The notes under the pieces were generated by a model, which searched no databases, was not told the DNA's origin, and worked only from the letters and a program-made list of their open reading frames with translations. Of a stretch of 64,000 nucleotides of DNA, positions 6,361 through 28,842 are shown piece after piece. Both the position numbers and the translations under genes were made by a program. Numbering within the stretch: the stretch's first letter is position 1; each line of letters begins with the position of its first letter. Source of the stretch: Streptacidiphilus sp. ASG 303. Lineage in GTDB: Bacteria > Actinomycetota > Actinomycetes > Streptomycetales > Streptomycetaceae. The stretch is taken from the NCBI RefSeq assembly GCF_020991365.1, contig NZ_JAJLRA010000003.1, forward strand, positions 310,001-374,000, in the 5' to 3' direction.

Positions 6361-6399
6361 GAAGGGCCCCTGACCGTTGGTGCCGGTCAGGGGCCCTTC
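6361..6399 (-). terminator. Perfect hairpin beside attL
   Basis: A 15-bp perfect stem (6361-6375 with 6385-6399) has a 9-nt loop. It lies 5 bp outside the att repeat. Its position matches the terminator downstream of an intact tRNA-Tyr on the minus strand, so it is probably the original chromosomal terminator of that tRNA, now separated from the gene by the element. No gene is apparent in 6036-6360. Confidence 0.75.
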
Positions 6400-6403
6400 G
6401 TGC

Positions 6404-6458
6404 TGCAAGTGGCGGGTGCAGGGTTCGAACCTGCGTAGCTTGCGCGACAGATTTACAG
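6404..6458. repeat. attL: 55-bp att core
   Basis: The 55 bases are identical to 28756-28810 and cover the 3' half of tRNA-Tyr(GTA), from 6 bp beyond the acceptor end into the anticodon loop. Identity stops abruptly on both sides (c/t before, a/t after). It carries no 5' half, so it is not a working tRNA. It marks the left end of the AICE. Confidence 0.92.
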
Positions 6459-6638
6459 ACCGCGCGCCGGACCGCGTCGACCAGCGGTGCTTCGGCTCCG
6501 GGGAGGCGGTGCCCCGTGTCTGCCCCATGGAAGCAGTCGGTCGCGGCTTTGCCCGACTGCCCCGATCGGGTCTGGCGGCGGCTCTACGCTGCGTCCTGAC
6601 CGCTGTACCAAGCCAAGCGCGTAGATGGGGGTTTCGCG

Positions 6639-7055
6639 ATGAGTACGGAGATCGTGGAGTTGGTGGAGCAGGCCGGCCCGTACCTGACGGCGGCGCTGGG
6701 CGCCTACGGGGGTGCGGTGCTCACGCGGGCCGAGAGCGCCGCGGCCGACGCCACCGCCAACCTCGGCCGCCGCATCCTGCACGCCGTCTGGCACCGCCGC
6801 GGCGCAGACGGACGGGCCGCACTGGAGAGCGCGGTGCAGGACGCCGCCGAGGACACCCAGGACCCAGACGCCGCCGCCGCACTGCGCCAGCAGATCAAGC
6901 GAGCCCTACGCGACGACGACGCCCTGCTCGCCGAACTGGCGGACCTGCTGCCCGAACCGTCCGGGACGGTGACGATCACCGCCTCCGGCACCCGCGCCAT
7001 CGCCGCCCACACCATCACCACCGCCGTCACCGGCGACAACACCCAGATCGGCTAG
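6639..7055 (+). CDS. Bell-like small protein with C-terminal amyloid-type motif
   Basis: 138 residues from ATG 6639 (GGGGG 8 nt upstream). The N-terminus is a Gly/Ala-rich amphipathic or hydrophobic helix (VELVEQAGPYLTAALGAYGG), followed by Ala-rich helices to about residue 100. The C-terminus switches to a beta-prone stretch rich in Thr, Ile, Val and Gly. Its last 26 residues include ASGTRAIAA and TGDNTQIG. Residues 113-133 align without gaps to residues 12-32 of the NB-ARC protein next door, with 12 of 21 identical. In described BASS systems a small effector with a Bell domain ends in a motif shared with the NLR receptor, and templated amyloid assembly then triggers membrane damage. That role is inferred; the motif match is directly visible. 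Its stop overlaps the next start by one base. Confidence 0.75.
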   Translation: MSTEIVELVEQAGPYLTAALGAYGGAVLTRAESAAADATANLGRRILHAVWHRRGADGRAALESAVQDAAEDTQDPDAAAALRQQIKRALRDDDALLAELADLLPEPSGTVTITASGTRAIAAHTITTAVTGDNTQIG

Positions 7056-10000
7056 TGACCAACGACCCGCCGCTCCGGGACACGGGCATCGAAGCATCCG
7101 GTGCCCGGTCGATCGCTGCCGGCAGCATCGTTAACGCCCACAGTGGCGACGTCATCAAGCTGCCCGCCGAGGTGCTGAACGCCGCCCGGGACGTCCAGGC
7201 ACCGCACGGGGCCAGCAACCTGCCCCCACTGGACCTGTGCCTGGGCCGTGACGACGACCTGGTCTGGCTGCGGAAGGCGCTGGCCTCGGACGGTGAGACG
7301 GCGATCACTCAGGCGCCGACGATCCACGGGCTGGGCGGGATCGGCAAGAGCACCCTGGCCCTGGCCTACGCCCACCGCCACCGCCGCAACTACAGCCTGG
7401 TCTGGTGGCTCACCGCCGACTCCCCCGCGAACATCGAGCAGTCCCTCGCCGACCTCGCCCTGCGCCTCTTCCCCGCCTGGGCCGAAAGAGCATCCGAGCA
7501 GGCCCGGGTCGCATGGGCCAAGTCCTGGCTGCAGTGGCACCCCGGCTGGCTCCTGATCTTCGACAACGTCGAAGACCCCAGCCACCTCGACCCCTACACC
7601 GGCGACCTCAGCGGCGGCCACCTGCTGGCCACCAGCCGCCGCGCCACCGGCTGGCCCCGCACCACCCCCACCCGCGCCCTCGGCACCCTGCCCCCCGACG
7701 ACGCCGCAGAGCTCCTGTGCACCCACGCCCTGGACGGCAACCCGCCAACCGCCCGCCAGCTCCACGACGCCCGCGCCCTGGCTGCCGACCTCGGCCACCT
7801 GCCGCTGGCCCTGGAGCAGGCCGGCGCCTACCTGCACCAGAACCCCACCATCGGCATTGACGCCTACCGCCGCCGGCTGTCCGTGAAACTGGACAAGGCC
7901 GCCGACGGCATCGACGCCGAACGCACCATCGCCCGCATCTGGACCCACACCCTGACGGCCCTCACCACCCGCAACCCGCTCGCCGTCATCGTCCTGCACA
8001 CCCTCGCCTGGCTAGCCCCCGACCACATCCCCCTCACCCTGCTCGACGGTCTCAGCCCCGACCCGGACGACCTCGGCGAGGCCCTCGGCGACCTCCACGC
8101 CTACAGCATGATCACCATCGCCCCCGGCGGCACCAGCATCAGCGTCCACCGCCTCGTCCAAACCGTCCTCCGCCACACCGCAACCACCGAAGACAACCGA
8201 CCGCCGGCAGGACGGGACGAGGCCGAGCAGGCCCTCGTACACGCCCTGACGGACCAGCCGACACCCGGCACCGGCCCCGCCCCGGAGTGGGACGCCCTGA
8301 TGCCCCACCTCATCGCACTCGCCACCACCACCCCGGATAGCCACCACTGCGATGCGACCACCGGTCTGTACGACACCGCTGCTCAATACCTCTACCGGCA
8401 GGGTCACGACGCCCGCACAATCCCACTACGAGAAGCCGCTCTCACCCAATGGGAGCAAACTCTCGGCGACACCCACCCCGACACCCTGACCAGCCGCGGC
8501 AACCTCGCCGGCGCCTACCAGACAGCGGGGAACCTGGCCCGCGCGATCCCTCTGCTGGAGACCACCCTCACGCAGTGCGAGGAGGTCCTCGGCGACACCC
8601 ACCCCGACACCCTGACCAGCCGCAACAACCTCGCCAGCGCCTGCCAGGACGCCGGCGACTACGCCCGCGCCATCCCCCTGCTGGAGACCACCCTCACCCA
8701 ATTCGAGGAGGTCCTCGGCGACACCCACCCCGACACCCTGACCAGCCGCAACAACCTCGCCAGCGCCTACCAGGACGCCGGCGACTACGCCCGCGCCATC
8801 CCCCTGCTGGAGACCACCCTCACCCAACGCGAGCAGGTCCTCGGCCACACCCACCCCTCCACCCTGGCCAGCCGCGGCAACCTCGCCGGTGCCTACCGGG
8901 CAGCGGGCGACCTGACCCGCGCCATCCCCCTGCTGGAGACCACCCTCACCCAACGCGAGCAGGTCCTCGGCCACACCCACCCCGACACCCTGACCAGCCG
9001 CAACAACCTCGCCTACGCCTACCAGGCAGCCGGCGACCTGACCCGCGCCATCCCCCTGCTGGAGACCACCCTCACCCAGTGCGAGCAGGTCCTCGGCCAC
9101 ACCCACCCCTCCACCCTGGCCAGCCGCGGCAACCTCGCCGGTGCCTACCGGGCAGCGGGCGACCTGGCCCGCGCGATCCCTCTGTTGGAGACCACCCTCA
9201 CCCAGTGCGAGGAGGTCCTCGGCGACACCCACCCCGACACCCTGACCAGCCGCAACAACCTCGCCTACGCCTACCAGGACGCCGGCGACCTGACCCGCGC
9301 CATCCCCCTGCTGGAGACCACCCTCACCCAATTCGAGGAGGTCCTCGGCCACACCCACCCCTCCACCCTGGCCAGCCGCGGCAACCTCGCCAGCGCCTAC
9401 CAGGACGCCGGCGACCTGACCCGCGCCATCCCCCTGCTGGAGACCACCCTCACCCAACGCGAGCAGGTCCTCGGCCACACCCACCCCTCCACCCTGACCA
9501 GCCGCGGCAACCTCGCCAGCGCCTACCAGGACGCCGGCGACCTGACCCGCGCCATCCCCCTGCTGGAGACCACCCTCACCCAACGCGAGGAGATCCTCGG
9601 CCACACCCACCCCTCCACCCTGACCAGCCGCGGCAACCTCGCCGTCGCGTACCGGGCAGCCGGCGACCTGACCCGCGCCATCCTCCTGTTTGAGACTGTC
9701 CTCGCCCAATGCGAGGAGATCCTCGGCCACACCCACCCCGACACCCTGACCAGCCGCGGCAACCTCGCCGGTGCCTACCGGGCAGCCGGCGACCTGACCC
9801 GCGCCATCCCCCTGCTGGAGACCACCCTCACCCAACGCGAGCAGGTCCTCGGCCACACCCACCCCGACACCCTGACCAGCCGCGGCAACCTCGCCAGCGC
9901 CTACCGGGCAGCCGGCGACCTGACCCGCGCCATCCCCCTGCTGGAGACCACCCTCACCCAGTGTGAGGAGATCCTCGGCCACACCCACCCGCGCACCCTG

Positions 10001-10183
10001 ACCACCCGCAACAACCTCGCCAGCGCCTACCGGGCAGCCGGCGACCTGACCCGCGCCATCCCCCTGTTCCAGACCGTCCTCACCCAGCACGAAGAGGTCC
10101 TCGGCCACACCCACCCGCGCACACAGAGAGTGCTTGCCAACCTGGTCAGCGCACGGAAGGCGCTCAAAGACGCGCAAGAGTGA
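7055..10183 (+). CDS. NB-ARC/TPR NLR-type STAND ATPase
   Basis: 1042 residues from GTG 7055, overlapping the upstream stop by one base; the open frame extends further but passes into the small gene's region. Order: N-terminal signalling motif at residues 12-32 (ASGARSIAAG, then SGD) shared with the upstream protein; NB-ARC ATPase with Walker A GLGGIGKST at ~91-100, Walker B LLIFDNVED at ~165 and a GHLPLALEQAG helical block; winged-helix region to ~400 ending in an SVHRLVQTVLR motif; one degenerate TPR; thirteen 42-residue kinesin-light-chain-type TPRs (472-1017); and a partial fourteenth. STAND ATPases of this type sense a ligand with the repeats, then oligomerise. A role in phage defence or regulated cell death as AICE cargo is inferred. 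No other effector domain is fused, so output probably goes through the neighbouring small protein. Confidence 0.9.
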   Translation: MTNDPPLRDTGIEASGARSIAAGSIVNAHSGDVIKLPAEVLNAARDVQAPHGASNLPPLDLCLGRDDDLVWLRKALASDGETAITQAPTIHGLGGIGKSTLALAYAHRHRRNYSLVWWLTADSPANIEQSLADLALRLFPAWAERASEQARVAWAKSWLQWHPGWLLIFDNVEDPSHLDPYTGDLSGGHLLATSRRATGWPRTTPTRALGTLPPDDAAELLCTHALDGNPPTARQLHDARALAADLGHLPLALEQAGAYLHQNPTIGIDAYRRRLSVKLDKAADGIDAERTIARIWTHTLTALTTRNPLAVIVLHTLAWLAPDHIPLTLLDGLSPDPDDLGEALGDLHAYSMITIAPGGTSISVHRLVQTVLRHTATTEDNRPPAGRDEAEQALVHALTDQPTPGTGPAPEWDALMPHLIALATTTPDSHHCDATTGLYDTAAQYLYRQGHDARTIPLREAALTQWEQTLGDTHPDTLTSRGNLAGAYQTAGNLARAIPLLETTLTQCEEVLGDTHPDTLTSRNNLASACQDAGDYARAIPLLETTLTQFEEVLGDTHPDTLTSRNNLASAYQDAGDYARAIPLLETTLTQREQVLGHTHPSTLASRGNLAGAYRAAGDLTRAIPLLETTLTQREQVLGHTHPDTLTSRNNLAYAYQAAGDLTRAIPLLETTLTQCEQVLGHTHPSTLASRGNLAGAYRAAGDLARAIPLLETTLTQCEEVLGDTHPDTLTSRNNLAYAYQDAGDLTRAIPLLETTLTQFEEVLGHTHPSTLASRGNLASAYQDAGDLTRAIPLLETTLTQREQVLGHTHPSTLTSRGNLASAYQDAGDLTRAIPLLETTLTQREEILGHTHPSTLTSRGNLAVAYRAAGDLTRAILLFETVLAQCEEILGHTHPDTLTSRGNLAGAYRAAGDLTRAIPLLETTLTQREQVLGHTHPDTLTSRGNLASAYRAAGDLTRAIPLLETTLTQCEEILGHTHPRTLTTRNNLASAYRAAGDLTRAIPLFQTVLTQHEEVLGHTHPRTQRVLANLVSARKALKDAQE
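8468..10105 (+). repeat. Thirteen near-identical 126-bp TPR-coding repeats
   Basis: Thirteen direct units of exactly 126 bp are present, each encoding a 42-residue TPR of the pattern HTHPxTLTSRxNLAxAYxxAG...RAIPLLETTLTQxE. Variation is limited to a few codons, and several variant blocks recur in combination: DTHP or HTHP, GNLAGAYRAAG or NNLASAYQDAG, and REQVLG, CEEVLG or FEEVLG. Similarity at DNA level implies recent duplication and recombination between units. Confidence 0.95.
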
Positions 10184-10651: not shown

Positions 10652-11452
10652 GTGCCAAAGCAACAATTCGCCCGAGAAGCTGACATGCTATCCCAAATCG
10701 CCGATCACGCTCGCTACTTGCTACAGCAGTCGGGCGATGTCAATACGTTTTTCGAGGTTCAGGCACCTGCAGGCATCCCCGATGTAGTGCTCGTCCAGTT
10801 CAACCAGAGCGAAGTAGCAAAGCGCTATAAATTGGGGCTAGAGCCCGTTCTGGATCTACCCAGCATGTCAGCTCTAATTACCCTGCAAACCCTATCCAGA
10901 AAATATGACAGAACAGGAGATGGATTTAAGACATCTCAGATTTCTTCCCTCTCTGGAGTTAGTCCGGGGCACTTGTCTTCTTCAGTTCTGCCCAAATTGG
11001 CACATGGGGGGCACCTGGAGCGCGTTAAGCGCGGATACTGGACAGTTACCTATTCTAATAGGAGCCTAGCCCGCAAGATTGTTACAGTTGAGGCAAAAAT
11101 TCGCGACTGGCGCAGTGGATATTCGCAAACGCTTAGACATAGAATTTCCGCCGACCAAGCGTGGCTAGTCCTGGATTCCGGCTTTGCCAATCCGGCGCTA
11201 GCACATTCCGATTGGTTCCGGCAAGGGAGAATCGGCCTTGCCACATTGCATGAAGATCACGGATTGCGGCCTAAGGTAACACCTCCACAAAGGATAGATG
11301 TCTCGGCTGCTTATAGGGAACTACTTGCCGAGCGGGCGTTCCTGCTTCACCGTACCGGCCAAGTTAGTGGACCAGTGCAGCATGTATTCGGAGCTCACCT
11401 GACTACTACTACAGGATCTGACCCCAGACTGGTAGGTGCCTCGGAACGTTAG
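10652..11452 (+). CDS. Putative PD-(D/E)XK-fold protein with inserted winged helix
   Basis: 266 residues from GTG 10652, with GGAAGGGAGG 6 nt upstream. A nuclease-like signature is split: E35 in FFEVQAP and P43-D44 in GIPDVVLVQF, then a winged-helix-like segment at ~72-135 (a helix ending TSQISSLSGVSPGHLSSSVL and a wing VKRGYWTVTY), then E147-A-K149 in VTVEAKIRDW with a downstream Gln (SGYSQT). The arrangement GxPD...(E)xK...Q is typical of the PD-(D/E)XK superfamily, and the E-A-K-x-x-D-W pattern recurs in uncharacterised members I have seen. Cleavage activity is inferred only. Codons are AT-richer than the AICE backbone. Its 3' end overlaps the convergent neighbour by 44 bp, which is unusual. 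Confidence 0.6.
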   Translation: MPKQQFAREADMLSQIADHARYLLQQSGDVNTFFEVQAPAGIPDVVLVQFNQSEVAKRYKLGLEPVLDLPSMSALITLQTLSRKYDRTGDGFKTSQISSLSGVSPGHLSSSVLPKLAHGGHLERVKRGYWTVTYSNRSLARKIVTVEAKIRDWRSGYSQTLRHRISADQAWLVLDSGFANPALAHSDWFRQGRIGLATLHEDHGLRPKVTPPQRIDVSAAYRELLAERAFLLHRTGQVSGPVQHVFGAHLTTTTGSDPRLVGASER

Positions 11453-12797
11453 CCTGTGCAAGCGGCCGGCCCTCCGTGAACCGTACCGCCGCATCGACGA
11501 TCCTCCGCACGGCTCCGTATCTACCGCCGCGTTTTGAATCCCTTGCCACAGCGGCCGTTAGCGATCCCATGCTGTGCAGATGATGGAAAGCTGCCAACTC
11601 GTGAGACCAGATAGCACCGGATTCCAGAGCTGGGCAGTACGGACAGCTACAGTCAACGTACCCATCGCCCTTTGCGAGAGACCTATGAACGCTGCTCTCA
11701 ACAGTATGTATGAGCTGACTTTCAAAGTATCGCTCGACTTGCGTTCTGCCTGGGGCACTTCGACGAAACACATACTCAGCGAAAGATTGATCACTGCCGC
11801 TAACGCCGATCCCGAAGCCAGTCGCACCGAAGGCCAGGCAAAGCCACCCGGTAAGCCCTGTTTGAGGAAGCAACAACCTGCGATCCTCGTCCAGGCACAG
11901 GTTAGAAAGCTTCTTGAGCCCGCGGAGCAGCGATAGGTCCTCTGTCGGAGTGAAAACTCGTGACTGCTCCCATTGCACTCGCACATAGAGAGTGTCGAAT
12001 TGGTCCTGGTCGACTATTTGGTCTAGAAGCCTGGTCCGCAGAGGCTCACTGGACAGCCAGCGAGCTGGCACGGTGAGGTTCAGGGCGAGCCTCTCTCCTC
12101 CGTTGAGGAGTGAAAGAGCCTGGTCTGCCTCCGCGCAGACAGCATCCAGTGATTCCTGTGGCTTGTCTGGATTCAGTGCTCTACCTGGCGTAAGAAGCAG
12201 ATTAGCTCCAGAGATCCTTTGAGCATCCAAAACACGTGAAACCCAGTCGTCCGCTTCAGGTTCGGACAAATATTTTCCATACTGGAAGGCGCGCAGAGAA
12301 ATTGGCTCCTGTGACAGGCGAAGAATCTGGGAGTCAAGCAGGTAACAGGCGGGGTCAGCAATCTTCAATGCGGCCGCAGAAGCTTGCTCAAAGAAAGTTT
12401 GGTGAGACTTTGTAGTGGCGCTGGAAATACGCGCGATTGCAGCCAGAGAGGCATGCTGTCCGTACGAGGTGTGCAGGTGAGCGAGGAGCCTCGGAATGGA
12501 CTTAGAGTACAAACGTCCTCGGTGCACCATGTATATGGGCGCGTCACCATCTAGCGCCTCATCCCTGCTCTTCAGCGCCCCGACGGAAGGCGCATTAACT
12601 TTCTTCGCACCAGTCGGCGGCTTCTCAAGAACGCTACCGGCTCCAACCCCACTCAGAATCAGGAAACCCTCTCCCGAAGGCAGAGAAACGAACTCTTTTT
12701 CGTCGCCTAGATATGACCCCGGATCACGACTCTCCACTTCGCCTGAAGACCAGTCGAGGTCATCTTCCGAGAACCAGTCAGGCTCTTCTCCGTGCAC
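11409..12797 (-). CDS. Unknown protein with TGT-like zinc motif
   Basis: 462 residues from GTG 12797 (GGGGGA upstream). The first ~85 residues are acidic and low in structure. From ~90 on, alternating strands and helices suggest an alpha/beta barrel: LLLTPGRAL, LALNLTVPARWL, LYVRVQW, then GATGFGIGVSG. Near the C-terminus is C383-x-C385-x2-C388 (CSCPYC) followed by His residues at 399, 405, 406 and 408 (LAAFHHLHSMG). tRNA-guanine transglycosylases and DpdA-type DNA transglycosylases carry a CxCxxC...H zinc site near the end of a TIM barrel, so distant kinship is plausible but unproven; the usual catalytic Asp contexts are not clear. It starts 8 bp after the kinase stop (same strand), so the two form an operon. 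I do not recognise the family. Confidence 0.7.
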   Translation of the reverse strand: MHGEEPDWFSEDDLDWSSGEVESRDPGSYLGDEKEFVSLPSGEGFLILSGVGAGSVLEKPPTGAKKVNAPSVGALKSRDEALDGDAPIYMVHRGRLYSKSIPRLLAHLHTSYGQHASLAAIARISSATTKSHQTFFEQASAAALKIADPACYLLDSQILRLSQEPISLRAFQYGKYLSEPEADDWVSRVLDAQRISGANLLLTPGRALNPDKPQESLDAVCAEADQALSLLNGGERLALNLTVPARWLSSEPLRTRLLDQIVDQDQFDTLYVRVQWEQSRVFTPTEDLSLLRGLKKLSNLCLDEDRRLLLPQTGLTGWLCLAFGATGFGIGVSGSDQSFAEYVFRRSAPGRTQVERYFESQLIHTVESSVHRSLAKGDGYVDCSCPYCPALESGAIWSHELAAFHHLHSMGSLTAAVARDSKRGGRYGAVRRIVDAAVRFTEGRPLAQANVPRHLPVWGQIL

Positions 12798-12805
12798 TAG
12801 TCCCC

Positions 12806-13633
12806 CTAGCGTTTATCGCCCAGTCGCGAAAGGTTGCTGTTAGAGCTGCCACGCTCGTGCTCTGCTACGGAAGTGAGGCGATCGAGCACACCACGGATAT
12901 GTGATGGGCAATCGGTAGGCAACGGGATGGGGCCCTTGGCCAGCCGATCCATTGCCTCATCTATAGTGAATGCCTGGCCAGGCTCGTAAAACGGGTGCCG
13001 GCCGCAGATCATTTCCCTAACTGTCACGCCGATCGCCCACAGGTCTGCGGATTTTCGAGCCCTCATACCCTGAAGTTGCTCAGGAGCCATATATGGATAA
13101 GTTCCTATGTGGCCGGGGTAGACGGTGATTGTAGATGAATCCAGCTGTTTAGCTAGACCAAGATCCAGCAGCACTGGACTATTCCAGTCCCCCCCACGGA
13201 GAACAATATTCCCAGGCTTGATATCCCGATGAATAGTAGAGGCTTTGTGCAGCGCCTGCGCGCCAATCAGCAGACCTTTTAGCAGAGGCTCAATTGAGTT
13301 CATCGGAACACGCTGGTTCTGCTGCCTCTTACGCTCAAGGTCACCCCCGCTGATGTACTCAAATCGGAGAGCCGGCCTAACCGTTCCGCCCAGATTGAGC
13401 TCCAAGGTTCCCTTGAAGGAAACTACAAAGGGAGAGTCTACGCGCCGGAGTCCTTCGACTTCTCGTTCTATACGGGCTCGCGGATAGTCATCCTTGCAGA
13501 TTACTTTGATTGCCTCATTTGCAACCCGCCAAGTGTCACCAAAGGTACCCGCGCCTAGGAATGTTGCCTGACACCCTAGTGCTTTACTTACCTCGTCGGC
13601 TGAAAATCTGGGCTGTGCGCTTCCGTCGGACAT
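12806..13633 (-). CDS. Ser/Thr protein kinase (soluble, AICE cargo)
   Basis: 275 residues from ATG 13633; a TTG at 13654 would add seven. The kinase domain fills the protein: glycine loop GAGTFGDTW at ~27-35, catalytic Lys in AIKVICK at ~43, HRDIKPGN loop at ~137, DLG in place of DFG (LLDLGLAK), activation-segment end GTYPYMAPEQ and the WAIGVTVREMICG helix. There is no PASTA or transmembrane segment, so unlike housekeeping Pkn proteins it is cytosolic. It is followed after 8 bp by the zinc-motif protein, suggesting that protein is its substrate or partner. Cargo-borne soluble kinases often belong to defence systems (e.g. Stk2); that role here is inferred. Codon use is AT-richer than the surroundings. 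Confidence 0.88.
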   Translation of the reverse strand: MSDGSAQPRFSADEVSKALGCQATFLGAGTFGDTWRVANEAIKVICKDDYPRARIEREVEGLRRVDSPFVVSFKGTLELNLGGTVRPALRFEYISGGDLERKRQQNQRVPMNSIEPLLKGLLIGAQALHKASTIHRDIKPGNIVLRGGDWNSPVLLDLGLAKQLDSSTITVYPGHIGTYPYMAPEQLQGMRARKSADLWAIGVTVREMICGRHPFYEPGQAFTIDEAMDRLAKGPIPLPTDCPSHIRGVLDRLTSVAEHERGSSNSNLSRLGDKR

Positions 13634-14131
13634 GGCGTGGTCTCGCTCCAACAAGAGTCGGATCTCGACTGGTCAATGTACAGACCTTCACGCCACCTTG
13701 ACAGCACTCCTGCGCAAGTTGACCGCCTCAGGTGATGATAAATTTTCCACATTTAAGACAAAGTTACACTTTTCATCCAGCCTGGTCTAGTCCAATGGAG
13801 CTTTCAACGATCGAACCGCTTGTAAGGCGAACAGGGCGGTGTCCAGCATCGGCTGGCAAGCTGGGCTGGGTGCGCCGCCGCGGGAGCCTCGAAAGGTGGC
13901 GAGGGCTATGCGGAGGCTTTCGCGGCCATCAACCGCTTGCACCTGATCCACGCCCCAGCCACCCGTCGGCCTGCCCTCATCCTCCCGCCTTGTGGCACGG
14001 AGCGGGCCGTCGCCGGAGCGGGATGCAGGCAGGAGCGACGGCGAACGGCGCCGCGCGGCGCCAGTGCCAGCGAAGTGAGCCTCGAACCCGTGGAGGAGGT
14101 TGTTACACCTTGGCGGATCCAGTATCACGAG
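13634..14131. other. Intergenic region upstream of kinase operon
   Basis: No gene is supported. The kinase-proximal part (13720-13785) is AT-rich (gataaattttccacatttaag) and probably contains the kinase promoter. The part from about 13800 to 14131 returns to high GC and may be debris of an older gene, but no recognisable protein motif is present. Confidence 0.5.
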
Positions 14132-14854
14132 CTAGTGGTCTACGGATGCTCCACTTACCCGACCTCCCGGAAGGGTCAACGCGTTCGCGAGAGTGTCCAT
14201 GCATGTGATGACAGCTGTGGCTCCGGCTGTCGTCAGGGCGGAGCGCTTGCCAGGCTTATTCGCAAAGCCGACGACAGCCATGCCAGCCGCCTTGGCCGCT
14301 TGAACATCGGTCACTGAGTCGCCCACGAGGACTGCGCTCCTGGGATCCGTGTCGAGTGAGGTTGCTGCGACTAGCAGTGGGTGTGGTGACGGTTTCATCA
14401 GGCTTGGCGCTAGGACCGGCCGACCGACGACCTCATGCACTAGCCACACCAAGCCATGCAGAGCCAGGAACGCGTTAACGCACTCGGCCGAGTTGTTGCT
14501 GACAACAGCGACCCTGCGGCCTGTGGAGTACGCAGCCGTCAGAGACCGGACAGCTCCAGCGACAGGAGGGCCAGCAACTGCGACGGCCGCCACTTCGGCT
14601 GCGGTCAGTGCGCCTTCAACGACCTTTAGGAGGCCTTCACCGCCAGCCTCCGAGATACGATGCACTTCCATGGGGTCATCGGTCGCCTCTGCGTCATGGG
14701 CGAGCTCTGGAGCTTGCCGCGCGACGATACCTGCAAGCTCTTTTGCCACCTCGGGTGCTGGCGCCCCTGCAAAGACGTCGCAGATGGGGCCGTCGAAGTC
14801 GAACAGGACTGCGTCGGTTGCTTCGACCAAGGCAGTAAGCGCTTCAGTGGCCAT
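14132..14854 (-). CDS. HAD-superfamily hydrolase
   Basis: 240 residues from ATG 14854. All four HAD motifs are present: DFDGPICDVF at ~19 (nucleophile Asp plus the general acid Asp two residues on), VVSNNS at ~115, a Lys in SLMKPSPHPLL at ~151, and LVGDSVTD at ~173. The cap insert between motifs I and II is of the C1 phosphoglycolate-phosphatase size. It probably dephosphorylates a small metabolite; the substrate cannot be told. It overlaps the GntR gene by 11 bp and is co-transcribed after it. GntR-HAD pairs recur at this position in Streptomyces AICEs, so it may belong to element control. Confidence 0.88.
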   Translation of the reverse strand: MATEALTALVEATDAVLFDFDGPICDVFAGAPAPEVAKELAGIVARQAPELAHDAEATDDPMEVHRISEAGGEGLLKVVEGALTAAEVAAVAVAGPPVAGAVRSLTAAYSTGRRVAVVSNNSAECVNAFLALHGLVWLVHEVVGRPVLAPSLMKPSPHPLLVAATSLDTDPRSAVLVGDSVTDVQAAKAAGMAVVGFANKPGKRSALTTAGATAVITCMDTLANALTLPGGRVSGASVDH

Positions 14855-15710
14855 CCGGATTGAAGTCCCTTCCGATGGTGTCCCAGACGCTCTCGAACCA
14901 CATGCGGGCCTGTTCGACCTGCTGGGCCCCTGTCGATGAGTCGCCCTCGTTCACCGAGTAGTGGAACAGGGTGGCGTCCTTACCGACGAGGTCGTAGATC
15001 TCGATGGCTTCGCCCTGGGCGACAACCTTATTCGGACGGATCGGGTAGTAGCCGAAGAAGGCGTCCTCGTTGTTAATGACGTAGAGCTTGAAGAACTGAG
15101 TGCCGCTGTGCACTCGGACGCTGACGTTGCTCTCCTGGACGAGACCGAGGTGGCTCAACTCGCTTATGGCATCGGAGATGCTGCGGGCATAGTTGACCAT
15201 GATGCTGTGCATCCGGGTGCGGAGTCGGGGATCGTCCGAGCAGTCCGCTCTGCGGACGGGCGCAGCCTGAGGGACCCCCATGTCGGGGACGAGGATGCGG
15301 ATGTTGATGCTCGTTGGTGTCAGGCGGCCGACTCGGATCTTGTCGAGCGGTTCCTGAAGGGCTCCGTGGAGAGTTTCGCTGGAGAATCCGGCGAAGTCGA
15401 TGGAGACGTGGCGGCTGGCGAAAGCCTGCTCGACGTAGGGGCGGAGTCCCGCCGGCCGTTCGGTGCGATTGCGGACGAAGACGCCGCTGCCCTTGCGGGA
15501 CACGACAAGGCCTTCATCCTCCAAGTCGCGCAGGGCGCGTTGGATCGTTGCCCGCGCGAAGCCGTAGTGCTCGGTCAGCATCTTGTGGGAGGGCAGCTTC
15601 TCCCCAGGGGTCAGCTTCTTCGTTCGGATGGCTGCGCCAAGGCTGCGCGAGACCTGCTCGTAGGGCGGGCGGTCGTCGTCCGGGTCCAGGGGCTCAAGGG
15701 CGAACGTCAT
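14844..15710 (-). CDS. GntR-family transcriptional regulator
   Basis: 288 residues from ATG 15710. The N-terminal winged helix of GntR type covers ~16-80: YEQVSRSLGAAIRTKKLTPG, EKLPSHKMLTEHYGFARATI and the wing DEGLVVSRKGSGVFVR. The C-terminal ~190 residues are not a clear UTRA or FadR domain; they contain HVSIDFAGF and a block IEIYDLVGKDATLFHYS. In pSAM2 and SLP1, GntR-type proteins (KorSA, ImpC-like) repress transfer and replication genes. This gene reads away from the transfer operon, across a region with a perfect inverted repeat over a promoter (15730-15791), consistent with the same role. Confidence 0.88.
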   Translation of the reverse strand: MTFALEPLDPDDDRPPYEQVSRSLGAAIRTKKLTPGEKLPSHKMLTEHYGFARATIQRALRDLEDEGLVVSRKGSGVFVRNRTERPAGLRPYVEQAFASRHVSIDFAGFSSETLHGALQEPLDKIRVGRLTPTSINIRILVPDMGVPQAAPVRRADCSDDPRLRTRMHSIMVNYARSISDAISELSHLGLVQESNVSVRVHSGTQFFKLYVINNEDAFFGYYPIRPNKVVAQGEAIEIYDLVGKDATLFHYSVNEGDSSTGAQQVEQARMWFESVWDTIGRDFNPDGH

Positions 15711-15729
15711 GGCTCGATGCTACGGCGAA

Positions 15730-15791
15730 CATGACTATTTGGACAGCCTGGCTACTCATCTCTTGACGTGGATAGTCATGCTGGCTACGTT
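15730..15791 (+). promoter_or_regulatory. Transfer-operon promoter with GntR operator pair
   Basis: Two perfectly inverted 9-mers, CATGACTAT (15730-15738) and ATAGTCATG (15772-15780), flank and overlap a sigma-70-like promoter on the plus strand. The -35 is TTGACG (15763-15768), followed by a 17-bp spacer and a -10 TACGTT (15786-15791). The second half-site lies inside the spacer, where a bound repressor would block polymerase. The GntR start codon is 20 bp away, so autoregulation is likely. The remaining bases up to 16107 show no gene. Confidence 0.65.
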
Positions 15792-16107
15792 GTTCCCGTG
15801 CCCACAAGGCTAGCCATGTTGATCAGGTTGGCCGGCGGAACTGCACCTGCAAAGAGGCAGCTCAGGACACAGATTGCGCCCGGAGAACCTCGTGAGACGG
15901 GTCCGAAGGAAGCGTCGGTTCTTTGACAACTGCATGGGGATCACGCCGCCTCTCCTCGGCCAAGTAGGCGGCCACGCGGGCTCTGCCCGCGTGAGGTACA
16001 GCGCATCCCGACCTCTCCGCGGCCTTGTGGCTGCGGCCGGTTGCCTCCGCCGCTCGTCTCGCACGAGCGGCGCCGAGGGGAGCCGGATCGACCGACTTCA
16101 ACGGCGC

Positions 16108-26952: not shown

Positions 26953-27141
26953 ATGGCCAAGCCGGAGTCCTTGAAGCTCTCCGAGGTACTGGAAGAGATC
27001 CGCATGTCCCGCGCCGCCTTCTACCGCATGCGGGCCCGCGGGCAGGCCCCGAGGATCCACACCCTCCCCAACGGGCATATCCGCATTCACCGCGCCGACC
27101 TGGACGCCTGGTGGGCCAGCCGGGCGGAGACCGCCGCCTGA
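26953..27141 (+). CDS. xis: Excisionase (AlpA/MerR-type helix-turn-helix)
   Basis: 62 residues from ATG 26953, with GAAGGAGACC upstream. A winged-helix domain covers most of it: LKLSEVLEEIRMSRAAFYRM, then the wing IHTLPNGHIRIHRADLDAWW. This is the standard AICE Xis that works with the adjacent integrase in excision. A hairpin lies between it and int. Confidence 0.88.
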   Translation: MAKPESLKLSEVLEEIRMSRAAFYRMRARGQAPRIHTLPNGHIRIHRADLDAWWASRAETAA

Positions 27142-27159
27142 TCTGGGCGGACCAGCATC

Positions 27160-27187
27160 GCGGGGCCCGGCGCCTGCCGGGCCCCGC
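27160..27187 (+). terminator. Hairpin between xis and int
   Basis: A perfect 12-bp stem (27160-27171 with 27176-27187) has a 4-nt loop. It ends 22 bp before the int start, so it could lower int expression relative to xis, or work as an attenuator. Confidence 0.6.
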
Positions 27188-27209
27188 CTTCGAGAGGAGA
27201 TCCACCACC

Positions 27210-28580
27210 TTGGCCAAGCCGACCTATGACGTCCGCATGTGGGCGATCCGGCAGCGCACCGACCGCAACCAGACCTCCGCCGAACTGCGCTGGAAGGTGG
27301 GCGGCACGGCCCACTCGGCCACCTTCCGCACGAAGACCCTGGCCGACGGCCGCCGGGCTGAACTGATGCGGGCGATCCGGGCCGGGGAGCCGTTCGACGA
27401 ACTGAGCGGACTCCCCATGTCCGAGATCCGGGCGCGCGACGACGTGAGCTGGTACGTCCACGCCCGGGACTACATCGAGATGCAGTGGCCCACCTCGCCC
27501 GCGAAGACGCGCACCACCTTGGCCGATGCCCTGGCCACCGCCACGCCCGTGATGGTCTCCTCCCACCGCGGGATGCCGGAGCCCGCGGTACTCCGCACTG
27601 CTCTGTACGGCTGGGCCTTCAACGTCAACCGCTGGCGGGACGAGCCGCCGGAGGAGCTCCGCAAGGCACTGGAATGGGTCGACCGCAACGCGCTGCCCAT
27701 GAGCGCGCTGGACGACCCGCTCCTGATGCGGCGGGTGCTCACCGCCTTCACGCTGCGCCTGGACGGGAAGCCGGCCGCACCTTCCACGGTCCGCAGGAAG
27801 CGCGCCATCTTTCACCACACCCTGGGCTACGCGGTGGAGGCCCGACGGCTGCCGCACAATCCGCTGTCACAAGTGCAGTGGAAGGTTCCCCCCGCGGTGG
27901 AGCAGGTAGAGCCCGCGTGCGTAGTCAACCCGCGCCAGGCGCGCGAGCTTCTGGAGGCCGTCCGGGCCCAGGGGAAGCGAGGCGTGCACCTGGAGGCGTT
28001 CTTCGGCTGCCTCTACCACGCCGGGCTGCGGCCGGCCGAGGCCGTGTGGCTTCGCGCGCCGAACTGCGACCTCCCCGCCGAAGGCTGGGGGAACTTGGTC
28101 ATCGACGGTTCACGGCCCCGTGTGGGCCGTTCCTGGACCGACGGCGGCGCCGCTCACGACCAGCGCGGGCTCAAGTGGCGCCCTCGCAAGGAGACCCGCA
28201 GCATCCCCATCCCGCCGGTCCTGGTGGACCTGCTGCGCCGGCACATCGAACTCCACGGGACCGGGCCGGACGGCCGGCTGTTCCGAACGGCGCGGGGCGG
28301 CATCGTGCAGGAGAGCGGCTACGGCGTCGTCTGGGCCAGGGCCCGGGAAGGCGTGTTCACCCCGGCGCAGGTGGCCTCTCCCCTCGCCTCCCGGCCGTAC
28401 GACCTGCGCCACGCAGCGGTCTCCCTGTGGCTGAACTCCGGGGTGGATCCGGCGGAGGTGGCCCGACGGGCGGGCCACAGCATCGCCGTGCTGCTGCGGG
28501 TCTACGCGAAGTGCCTGGACGGGGCGACGGCCCAGGCCAACCAGCGGATCTCGCAGGCCCTGGAGAAGTGGGGGCAGTAG
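27210..28580 (+). CDS. int: Tyrosine recombinase (AICE integrase)
   Basis: 456 residues from TTG 27210 with GAGAGGAGA 9 nt upstream; no nearby in-frame ATG or GTG has a site. The N-terminal arm-binding region is followed by a core-binding helix bundle. The catalytic domain has Arg in HAGLRPAEAVW at ~276, a Lys region RPRKETRSIPIPP at ~330, the box DLRHAAVSLWLNSGVDPAEV at ~397, then GHS and the nucleophile Tyr in LLRVYAKCLDG near 430. It recombines the att core in tRNA-Tyr, and the gene ends about 175 bp from attR, as expected. Confidence 0.94.
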   Translation: MAKPTYDVRMWAIRQRTDRNQTSAELRWKVGGTAHSATFRTKTLADGRRAELMRAIRAGEPFDELSGLPMSEIRARDDVSWYVHARDYIEMQWPTSPAKTRTTLADALATATPVMVSSHRGMPEPAVLRTALYGWAFNVNRWRDEPPEELRKALEWVDRNALPMSALDDPLLMRRVLTAFTLRLDGKPAAPSTVRRKRAIFHHTLGYAVEARRLPHNPLSQVQWKVPPAVEQVEPACVVNPRQARELLEAVRAQGKRGVHLEAFFGCLYHAGLRPAEAVWLRAPNCDLPAEGWGNLVIDGSRPRVGRSWTDGGAAHDQRGLKWRPRKETRSIPIPPVLVDLLRRHIELHGTGPDGRLFRTARGGIVQESGYGVVWARAREGVFTPAQVASPLASRPYDLRHAAVSLWLNSGVDPAEVARRAGHSIAVLLRVYAKCLDGATAQANQRISQALEKWGQ

Positions 28581-28755: not shown

Positions 28756-28810
28756 TGCAAGTGGCGGGTGCAGGGTTCGAACCTGCGTAGCTTGCGCGAC
28801 AGATTTACAG
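28756..28810. repeat. attR: 55-bp att core
   Basis: Identical to 6404-6458. It overlaps the 3' half of the functional tRNA-Tyr, so integration restores the gene. Confidence 0.92.
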
Positions 28811-28842
28811 TCTGCTCCCTTTGGCCGCTCGGGCAACCCGCC
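28762..28842 (-). tRNA. tRNA-Tyr (anticodon GTA)
   Basis: 81 nt on the minus strand. The acceptor stem GGCGGGT pairs with ACCCGCC, with discriminator A. The anticodon loop reads CTGTAAA (GTA). It has a long class II variable arm (GCGCAAGCTACGC region) and T-arm GGTTCGAACC. CCA is not encoded. It is the attachment gene for the AICE. Confidence 0.93.

Follow-up and report, generated by a model that had tools for sequence, protein, structure and literature searches.

A mobile three-gene cassette encoding a kinase, a predicted tRNA-guanine transglycosylase-fold protein and a PD-(D/E)XK-fold protein looks like an undescribed defence system of Actinomycetota

In a stretch of 64,000 nucleotides of Streptacidiphilus sp. 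ASG 303 (contig NZ_JAJLRA010000003.1, positions 310,001 to 374,000 of the forward strand; called the window in the following), part of a genome of about 7 Mb, we analysed a cassette of three genes, which encode a Ser/Thr protein kinase, a zinc-motif protein of 462 aa with the predicted fold of tRNA-guanine transglycosylases (TGTs), and a nuclease-like protein of 266 aa with a predicted PD-(D/E)XK fold. As far as sequence comparison goes, the trio is passed on as a single block. They are cargo of an integrative element, not DNA flanking it, and the trio looks like an undescribed defence system. For our favoured reading, a self-contained three-gene immunity module on actinobacterial mobile elements, directed against competing phages or elements, we see about an even chance; its defence role is what we infer from context.

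A total of 16 distinct loci of the 462-aa family was obtained, the window included. Since the query for these loci was the 462-aa protein, the question is whether the other two genes follow, and co-occurrence concerns the kinase and the nuclease only. In all 16 loci, the kinase gene lies upstream of the 462-aa gene and the 266-aa gene is convergent. An all-versus-all comparison of open reading frames (ORFs) of at least 70 aa, covering about 10 kb or less per side, revealed exactly three families present in 16/16 loci, followed by a small ORF, common to the window's element, in five. The lowest identities to the window proteins were 25% for the 462-aa barrel protein, 18% for the nuclease and 33% for the kinase. 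Pairwise distance matrices of the three proteins correlated with r of 0.94–0.97, a value reached by none of 5000 permutations. The convergent 3' ends overlap by 4–101 bp in 14 of the loci; in the remaining two they lie 5 and 70 bp apart. In the window, the kinase and 462-aa genes form an operon with 8 bp between them, on which the 266-aa gene converges. A preliminary description, made from the letters of the window, had claimed this spacing, the 44-bp convergent overlap and the grouping of the three genes into one cassette; the coordinates agree, and the neighbourhood comparison, in which homologues scattered without co-occurrence might have appeared, gave the opposite picture, with all three genes together in every locus. 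The nuclease gene of the Arthrobacter locus is absent from the PLSDB gene table, which is incomplete, yet its frame is open. In one locus (L013), the start codon of the 462-aa homologue is absent at the expected place and the sequence was taken from the first homologous base, while L011, L019 and L020 have starts that could not be placed with certainty; the motif counts given below are unaffected in all four.

For all three proteins, the set of S. albogriseolus is closest to that of Actinomadura and not to those of other Streptomyces, so that the trio seems to move together. A 17th copy, beyond the 16 loci, was found in genome G1030 and shares 79% DNA identity with the S. albogriseolus locus. 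The similarity begins about 58 bp before the kinase start, reaches about 83 bp past the nuclease start and then ends; the flanks of the S. albogriseolus copy map elsewhere in the G1030 genome, and the cassette site differs. Among the matches listed for 21 genomes, no empty site of the S. albogriseolus copy was found. Small ORFs of the window's element are also present in four Streptomyces loci, an integrase adjoins the copy of genome G669 (104.8 bits), and another beside L010 scores just below the cut-off; several cassette loci look like integrative elements. Inspection of upstream regions by eye gave no common motif. Two copies that differ by 21% overall share 32 identical bases upstream of the kinase, TCGTATAACCTGTCAGGGCGTCATATGCCTGC (L014, about 8956–8987, and L089), a possible operator or promoter.

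In regard to distribution, the 462-aa family is rare. The counts for order, class and phylum, which each include the window's own genome and come from overlapping samples, were 2 of 293, 3 of 394 and 3 convincing matches among 396 genomes; the other seven of the ten phylum matches obtained at E 0.1 (10/396) were short, with E values of 0.02–0.1, and were dropped. Two of 72,556 plasmid records carry the protein, namely the Kineococcus linear plasmid pKRAD01 and Arthrobacter FB24 plasmid 3, which is typed as conjugative. None of 50,697 phage records contained it, nor did the viral contigs. A scan of genome contigs with the single 462-aa sequence found no relative, and a profile of the family found nine loci. 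Apart from the window and the plasmids, the loci belong to six Streptomyces, to Nocardia, Planotetraspora and Actinomadura, and to the genomes G576, G429, G669 and G962.

The AlphaFold2 model of the 462-aa protein, built with 14 sequences, had a predicted local distance difference test (pLDDT) score of 86.2. Comparison by VIA-align gave TGTs in all 50 listed rows (Z 19.2–20.5), with 1iq8_A as best match (Z 20.5, root-mean-square deviation 3.4 Å, 297 residues aligned, 14% identity), and Foldseek against the PDB likewise ranked 1iq8, an archaeosine TGT, first (E 9.2e-6, TM 0.45). Thus, the protein is predicted to have a TGT fold. It would resemble the queuine and archaeosine TGTs (PF01702) in its TIM barrel with a C-x-C-x2-C...H zinc subdomain; D148 of the window protein maps to the place of Asp102. 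The putative zinc ligands C383, C385, C388 and H405 are invariant in 16/16 orthologues and, by analogy, match the TGT zinc site. In the VIA-align rows of the Zymomonas mobilis TGT, model residue 439 ends at chain residue 383; this register, if ungapped, places H405 on H349, which we take to be a zinc ligand of that enzyme. The protein differs in that no sequence-profile similarity to the TGTs is detectable, its last Cys and the His are separated by 16 residues compared with 25 in 2ash, and most family members carry a long acidic N-terminal extension.

A further difference concerns catalysis. In bacterial TGT, Asp280 performs the nucleophilic attack, assisted by Asp102, according to the section cited (PMC6165067). 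Since the sequence profiles of the barrel family and the TGTs do not align, residues were mapped by eye over secondary structure, without coordinate superposition; a profile-profile alignment with 18 actinobacterial TGTs failed (for 2 of the 20 TGT loci retrieved, no ORF passed the motif filter). Along the predicted strands, 'IADP' with D148 falls where TGT has 'LTDSGG', the place of Asp102. This ADP motif is present in 14/16 orthologues, while two deep-branch members have LDFG or LDWG, unaligned in that column. On strand 8, which bears the nucleophile Asp280 in the Z. mobilis enzyme, GxxGFGxG stands where TGT has 'GVDMFD' (sequence of 2ash), and columns 324–333 contain no Asp in any of the 16. 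By the same mapping, Asp156, Gln203 and Gly230, which we take to be the base-pocket residues of TGT, are not kept either. The barrel proposed in the preliminary description was thus borne out by structure prediction and sharpened to a TGT fold that appears to be without the nucleophile Asp; on this evidence, the 462-aa family would not be a standard TGT enzyme. PF01702 gave no match at E 1 in the window protein and is absent from the four families listed for 14 members, and sequence searches of the PDB revealed nothing significant for this barrel. In the window's genome and 20 relatives, no PF01702 TGT was found (0/21; control genomes 14/14), and queuosine is therefore probably absent from their tRNAs. 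A search of viral structures gave R9TGF0, an unnamed protein of Vibrio phage nt-1, as best match (TM 0.35); it may or may not be the DpdA of this phage and was not used as evidence. Phage nt-1 is listed as a deazaguanine phage in the part of the survey drawn on here (PMC6884629).

The kinase matches PF00069 (Pkinase) with 118.6 bits (cut-off 31.7). Its residues G29xxG32, K43, E58, H135RD137xK139xxN142 (HRDxKPxN) and D157LG are invariant in 16/16 orthologues, and the first loop Gly (27) is an Asp in the two deepest members; read from the sequence, its catalytic residues are intact. For the 266-aa protein, the AlphaFold2 model reached a pLDDT of 89.2. Foldseek at E 0.001 found only 3dnx (E 8.9e-4), which we take to be MmcB-like, and the nearest VIA-align matches were 3dnx (Z 11.9, 134 aligned) and the type IIS enzyme PaqCI (8em1, Z 11.0), while part of the model matched the Pyrococcus repair endonuclease 2vld (Z 9.2, 98 aligned). 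Residues of about 65–138 match many winged helices (Z 8.8–10.2). The PD-(D/E)XK core is common to 3dnx, PaqCI and the 266-aa protein, but in the latter the winged helix is inserted between the catalytic D44 and ExK (147–149). With E9, E35, D44, E147xK149 and Q159 invariant in 16/16 orthologues, the predicted PD-(D/E)XK fold appears catalytically intact, and the protein is likely a DNA cutter. PDB sequence searches gave nothing significant for it. The structure prediction agrees with the inserted winged helix suggested beforehand, and the DLG, HRD, CxCxxC...H and D...ExK motifs pointed out in the preliminary description are all present and conserved across orthologues. An identity as AbiEi antitoxin (type IV toxin-antitoxin) was rejected, as both scores were under their cut-offs: one AbiEi model reached 14.9 bits (cut-off 25) over the winged helix only, and another model 12.2 (cut-off 150).

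The nuclease family extends beyond these loci. A scan with its profile matched 20 of 394 genomes at E 0.001, comprising three cassette loci, two loci of a divergent version and 15 partial matches to the winged helix or the C-terminal part only, of which those in G407, G522, G460 and G551 were examined further. In G520 and G444, which carry the divergent version, the nuclease is recognisable (hhalign 98.9 and 98.8%) and convergent with a gene for a 383-aa protein without CxCxxC, directly upstream of which lies a kinase gene overlapping it by 4 bp; because kinases are common, it is the arrangement, not kinase similarity, that counts here. The same trio was found with the 383-aa protein (31%, E 3e-27; 1 of 72,556 records) on the Dietzia plasmid pDK313-58, where both junctions overlap by 4 bp, an N-6 DNA methylase gene adjoins and the nuclease, read by eye, retains its PD and EAK motifs. 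Judged by its motifs, the divergent version would thus consist of a kinase with HRDLSPGN, a zinc-less protein of 383–389 aa and an active-looking nuclease, and one copy (L054) adjoins a TrwC-type relaxase. The 383-aa protein shares with the 462-aa family short motifs only, seen by eye, and a profile comparison of the two was negative; it is called a barrel by analogy. A scan with it gave matches in 6 of 197 genomes at E 0.001, five of which were short and were dropped, leaving a full match in G444 only. In G460 (L056), G522 (L039) and G551 (L043), which we read as Frankia-like, the gene for a TGT-like zinc barrel protein of 400–470 aa with [AG]DPxxY, ALTPT and CxCxxC converges on that of a PD-(D/E)XK relative from which ExK has been lost. 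An ExK-less relative is also present in G407, without a recognisable barrel beside it. No kinase similarity was found within about 6–7 kb of the G460 pair, or within about 1.6 kb per side in G522 and G551.

Comparison with described systems gave no name for the trio. The 462-aa protein matched nothing above noise in Pfam, NCBIfam (June 2026), PADLOC 2.0.0 or PHROGs, and two of the three cassette proteins belong to no family of the libraries searched. A literature search covering open-licence PMC papers returned no description of the trio. The view that the set matches no named system therefore stood, in that none of the family and defence models searched gives it a name; we rate the cassette architecture as categorically new, and its function is what we infer. 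Kinase domains of PD-T4-6, MADS (mad6) and Pgl/BREX type 2 (PglW) resemble that of the cassette (PADLOC E 1.2e-33, 8.7e-40 and 4.8e-14, in a library that states no cut-off for PD-T4-6), but the matches span this domain only. PD-T4-6 is a lone defence kinase. MADS and Pgl were rejected as identities of the cassette in a comparison confined to its own genes, as its other two proteins match no PADLOC model beyond the weak AbiEi similarity. As to TGT homologues, QTRT2 of eukaryotes is described, in the section cited, as keeping the TGT fold and zinc site with its catalytic residues replaced (PMC6165067). It differs in having the catalytic QTRT1 as partner, whereas the partners in the cassette are a kinase and a PD-(D/E)XK protein. 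Dpd (with DpdA) and BRC systems likewise place a TGT homologue in a defence setting, but the proposed role of their TGTs is to introduce deazaguanines into DNA, and the cassette contains none of the partners named in the part of that account cited (DpdB and DpdC; PglZ, HerA/FtsK, GNAT and others) (PMC12839542). Modification-dependent restriction of the GrwAB/GmrSD type offers a precedent in that it restricts 7-deazaguanine-modified phages; its proteins are of DUF262/DUF1524 type, and the sections cited mention neither a TGT fold nor a kinase (PMC12137116).

With respect to the surroundings of the cassette copies, ten neighbour proteins chosen by eye from seven loci were compared with PADLOC, and four had matches with E values of no more than 0.001. 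The G669 neighbour was a type III-like restriction enzyme and that of Planotetraspora an HNH/SAVED effector-like protein, while S. lydicus gave PDC-S39 and G962 a HEPN-like protein. Such defence-like neighbours are suggestive, not controlled.

In the window, a tRNA-Tyr repeat pair and an integrase beside the intact tRNA delimit an element at 6404–28810, of about 22.4 kb and bounded by a perfect 55-bp direct repeat (Table 1). It contains an NB-ARC/TPR protein, the cassette, a GntR-type regulator, a DUF2637 protein and the integrase. The NB-ARC/TPR gene, at the left cargo end, directly adjoins the cassette; since the first codons of its ORF precede the left attachment (att) copy, its true start should lie further in. 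The claim that the set is carried on a mobile element was confirmed, as the att repeat brackets the cassette. Its proposed place between an NLR module and the backbone of an actinomycete integrative and conjugative element was right in position, except that both sides and the cassette form one att-bracketed element. GC content is 54.8% in the cassette (10652–13654) and 73.8% in the window, the lowest value among 519 stretches of 3 kb outside 10–16 kb being 69.7%; third-position GC is 0.49–0.57 in the cassette versus mostly 0.7–0.98 in other ORFs, which were chosen by script. The cassette is thus indeed AT-richer, but the statement that its GC was lower than everything around it was slightly too strong, because the right flank (13655–16000) is also low, at 62.6%. 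A pair of genes for an HAD-family hydrolase and a GntR regulator (14132–15710), of moderately low GC, lies between the cassette and the transfer genes.

Table 1. Coordinates of the cassette, of features of the element that carries it, and of loci of the divergent version (window positions unless a locus is named).
Feature	Position	Strand	Remarks
Gene for PD-(D/E)XK-fold protein (predicted), 266 aa	10652–11452	+	Inserted winged helix; ORF and structure prediction
Gene for TGT-fold zinc protein (predicted), 462 aa	11409–12797	-	ORF and structure prediction
Gene for Ser/Thr protein kinase, 275 aa from ATG	12806–13633	-	Pfam Pkinase; TTG at 13654 is a possible start
Overlap of the convergent 3' ends of the 266-aa and 462-aa genes, 44 bp	11409–11452		
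Left att copy	6404–6458	+	55-bp exact repeat of tRNA-Tyr 3' part
Right att copy	28756–28810	+	Overlaps tRNA-Tyr (28761–28842, -)
Tyrosine integrase of the element	27111–28580	+	Phage_integrase, 27.2 bits (cut-off 27.1); adjoins intact tRNA
NB-ARC/TPR (NLR-like) neighbour ORF	6377–10183	+	Same element, outside cassette
Divergent version, L096	3168–5892		Dietzia pDK313-58
Divergent version, L053	6603–9385		
Divergent version, L054	8652–11725		

The traits that suggest an immune module are a reader-like fold, a likely DNA cutter and a kinase, combined with mobility, patchy distribution and the neighbours described above. The trio stays together throughout Actinomycetota, on mobile elements of different kinds and with barrel proteins as little as 25% identical, which speaks for one selected function. 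In such a module, the 462-aa protein would no longer exchange bases, and the nucleic-acid-binding face of the TGT fold would recognise invading DNA or tRNA. The winged-helix nuclease, once recruited or released, could then bind and cut DNA, while the kinase might act on the barrel protein, the nuclease or both, either holding the pair off or activating it during infection. The overlapping convergent 3' ends may help to balance the nuclease against the kinase-barrel operon. Several points weigh against this proposal. The TGT assignment comes from a predicted model, for which 49 of the 50 listed Foldseek rows are not TGTs, most of them being aldolases, transaldolases and other TIM-barrel enzymes. 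The call on the nucleophile depends on strand-by-strand mapping by eye of unalignable profiles. Apart from a weak match to the winged helix, the kinase domain is the only part of the cassette known to PADLOC; the neighbours were hand-picked without a background control, and six of the ten match nothing. Since ExK has been lost in the relatives of G460, G522, G551 and G407, cutting is, by this motif, not retained in every relative. In addition, maintenance or regulation of the element is another role that would suit a small mobile cassette.

This last possibility, in which the winged-helix protein would mainly be a DNA-binding regulator or a site-specific nuclease for the element, and the kinase and barrel protein would tune excision, transfer or copy number, is in our view unlikely, at about one chance in five. 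The occurrence on plasmids and integrative elements is what it predicts, and the one weak resemblance of the 266-aa protein to a known family, that to the AbiEi winged helix, points the same way, though below the cut-off; yet the ORFs around the S. albogriseolus copy, judged by eye, look chromosomal, the G1030 copy is at an unrelated place, no other gene family is common to the 16/16 carriers, and the nuclease residues are invariant throughout. An addiction-like set, with a toxic nuclease (or kinase) restrained by the barrel protein or by phosphorylation, would account for the convergent 3' overlaps in 14/16 loci, the mobile location and the intact kinase and nuclease residues. Three conserved enzyme-sized genes, however, exceed what addiction needs, and toxin-antitoxin partners are usually operonic, a convergent arrangement being unusual, so we consider a toxin-antitoxin set improbable.

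Two other alternatives take the TGT fold as their starting point. We give only a slim chance to an RNA-directed abortive system, in which the protein would sense tRNA and the kinase and nuclease would stop growth when a phage perturbs tRNA. All 50 listed VIA-align rows are structures of tRNA-acting TGTs, and QTRT2, as described in the section cited, shows that a TGT subunit can be noncatalytic (PMC6165067), but the nearest folds of the nuclease are DNA enzymes, its winged helix is of DNA type, and none of the cassette proteins was recognised as having an RNase fold. DNA modification in the manner of Dpd, where the TGT-fold protein would insert 7-deazaguanine into DNA and the nuclease would restrict unmodified DNA, would be in keeping with the fold and with the pairing of DpdA, a TGT homologue, with restriction enzymes in the part of the account cited (PMC12839542). 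We regard it as very improbable, given that the nucleophile-strand Asp is missing in 16/16 orthologues and PF01702 has no match; dpd models were not among the PADLOC matches of the cassette proteins. QueC, of preQ0 synthesis, exceeds the Pfam cut-off in 8/16 cassette genomes or records, all partial or weak, and is found at E 0.001 in 9/16, with none in 7/16, two of which are plasmid records only. These matches mostly cover model positions 1–70 with E values of 1e-5 to 9e-4 in frames of 440–822 aa, the best being that of Actinomadura (7.7e-11, half the model); we read most of them as probably other proteins, although a preQ0 supply may exist.

Returning to the immunity module, a more specific version, for which we see a small chance, is that the 462-aa family, having lost the nucleophile, has changed from a TGT that writes a modification into one that reads it, recognising a hypermodified guanine or a flipped base and handing the DNA to a kinase-controlled PD-(D/E)XK cutter. 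Counting against this, the presumed TGT base-pocket residues are not kept by the strand mapping. The 7-deazaguanines of some DpdA-bearing actinophages would be targets, for instance; the survey portion cited gives Rosebush as an actinobacterial phage with dPreQ0 at about 28% of G, and phage Orion as a carrier of DpdA in which no modification was seen (PMC6884629). By analogy, such a reader would fit both a dPreQ0 actinophage and deazaguanine-sensing restriction like that of GrwAB. If true, this would be modification-dependent restriction built on the same fold that makes the modification, and the known dPreQ0 actinophage makes the hypothesis testable. Altogether, a module of kinase and nuclease that includes a TGT fold without its nucleophile would put this fold to a new use, and as the cassette is short and clonable, with clear catalytic residues to mutate, the idea is directly testable.

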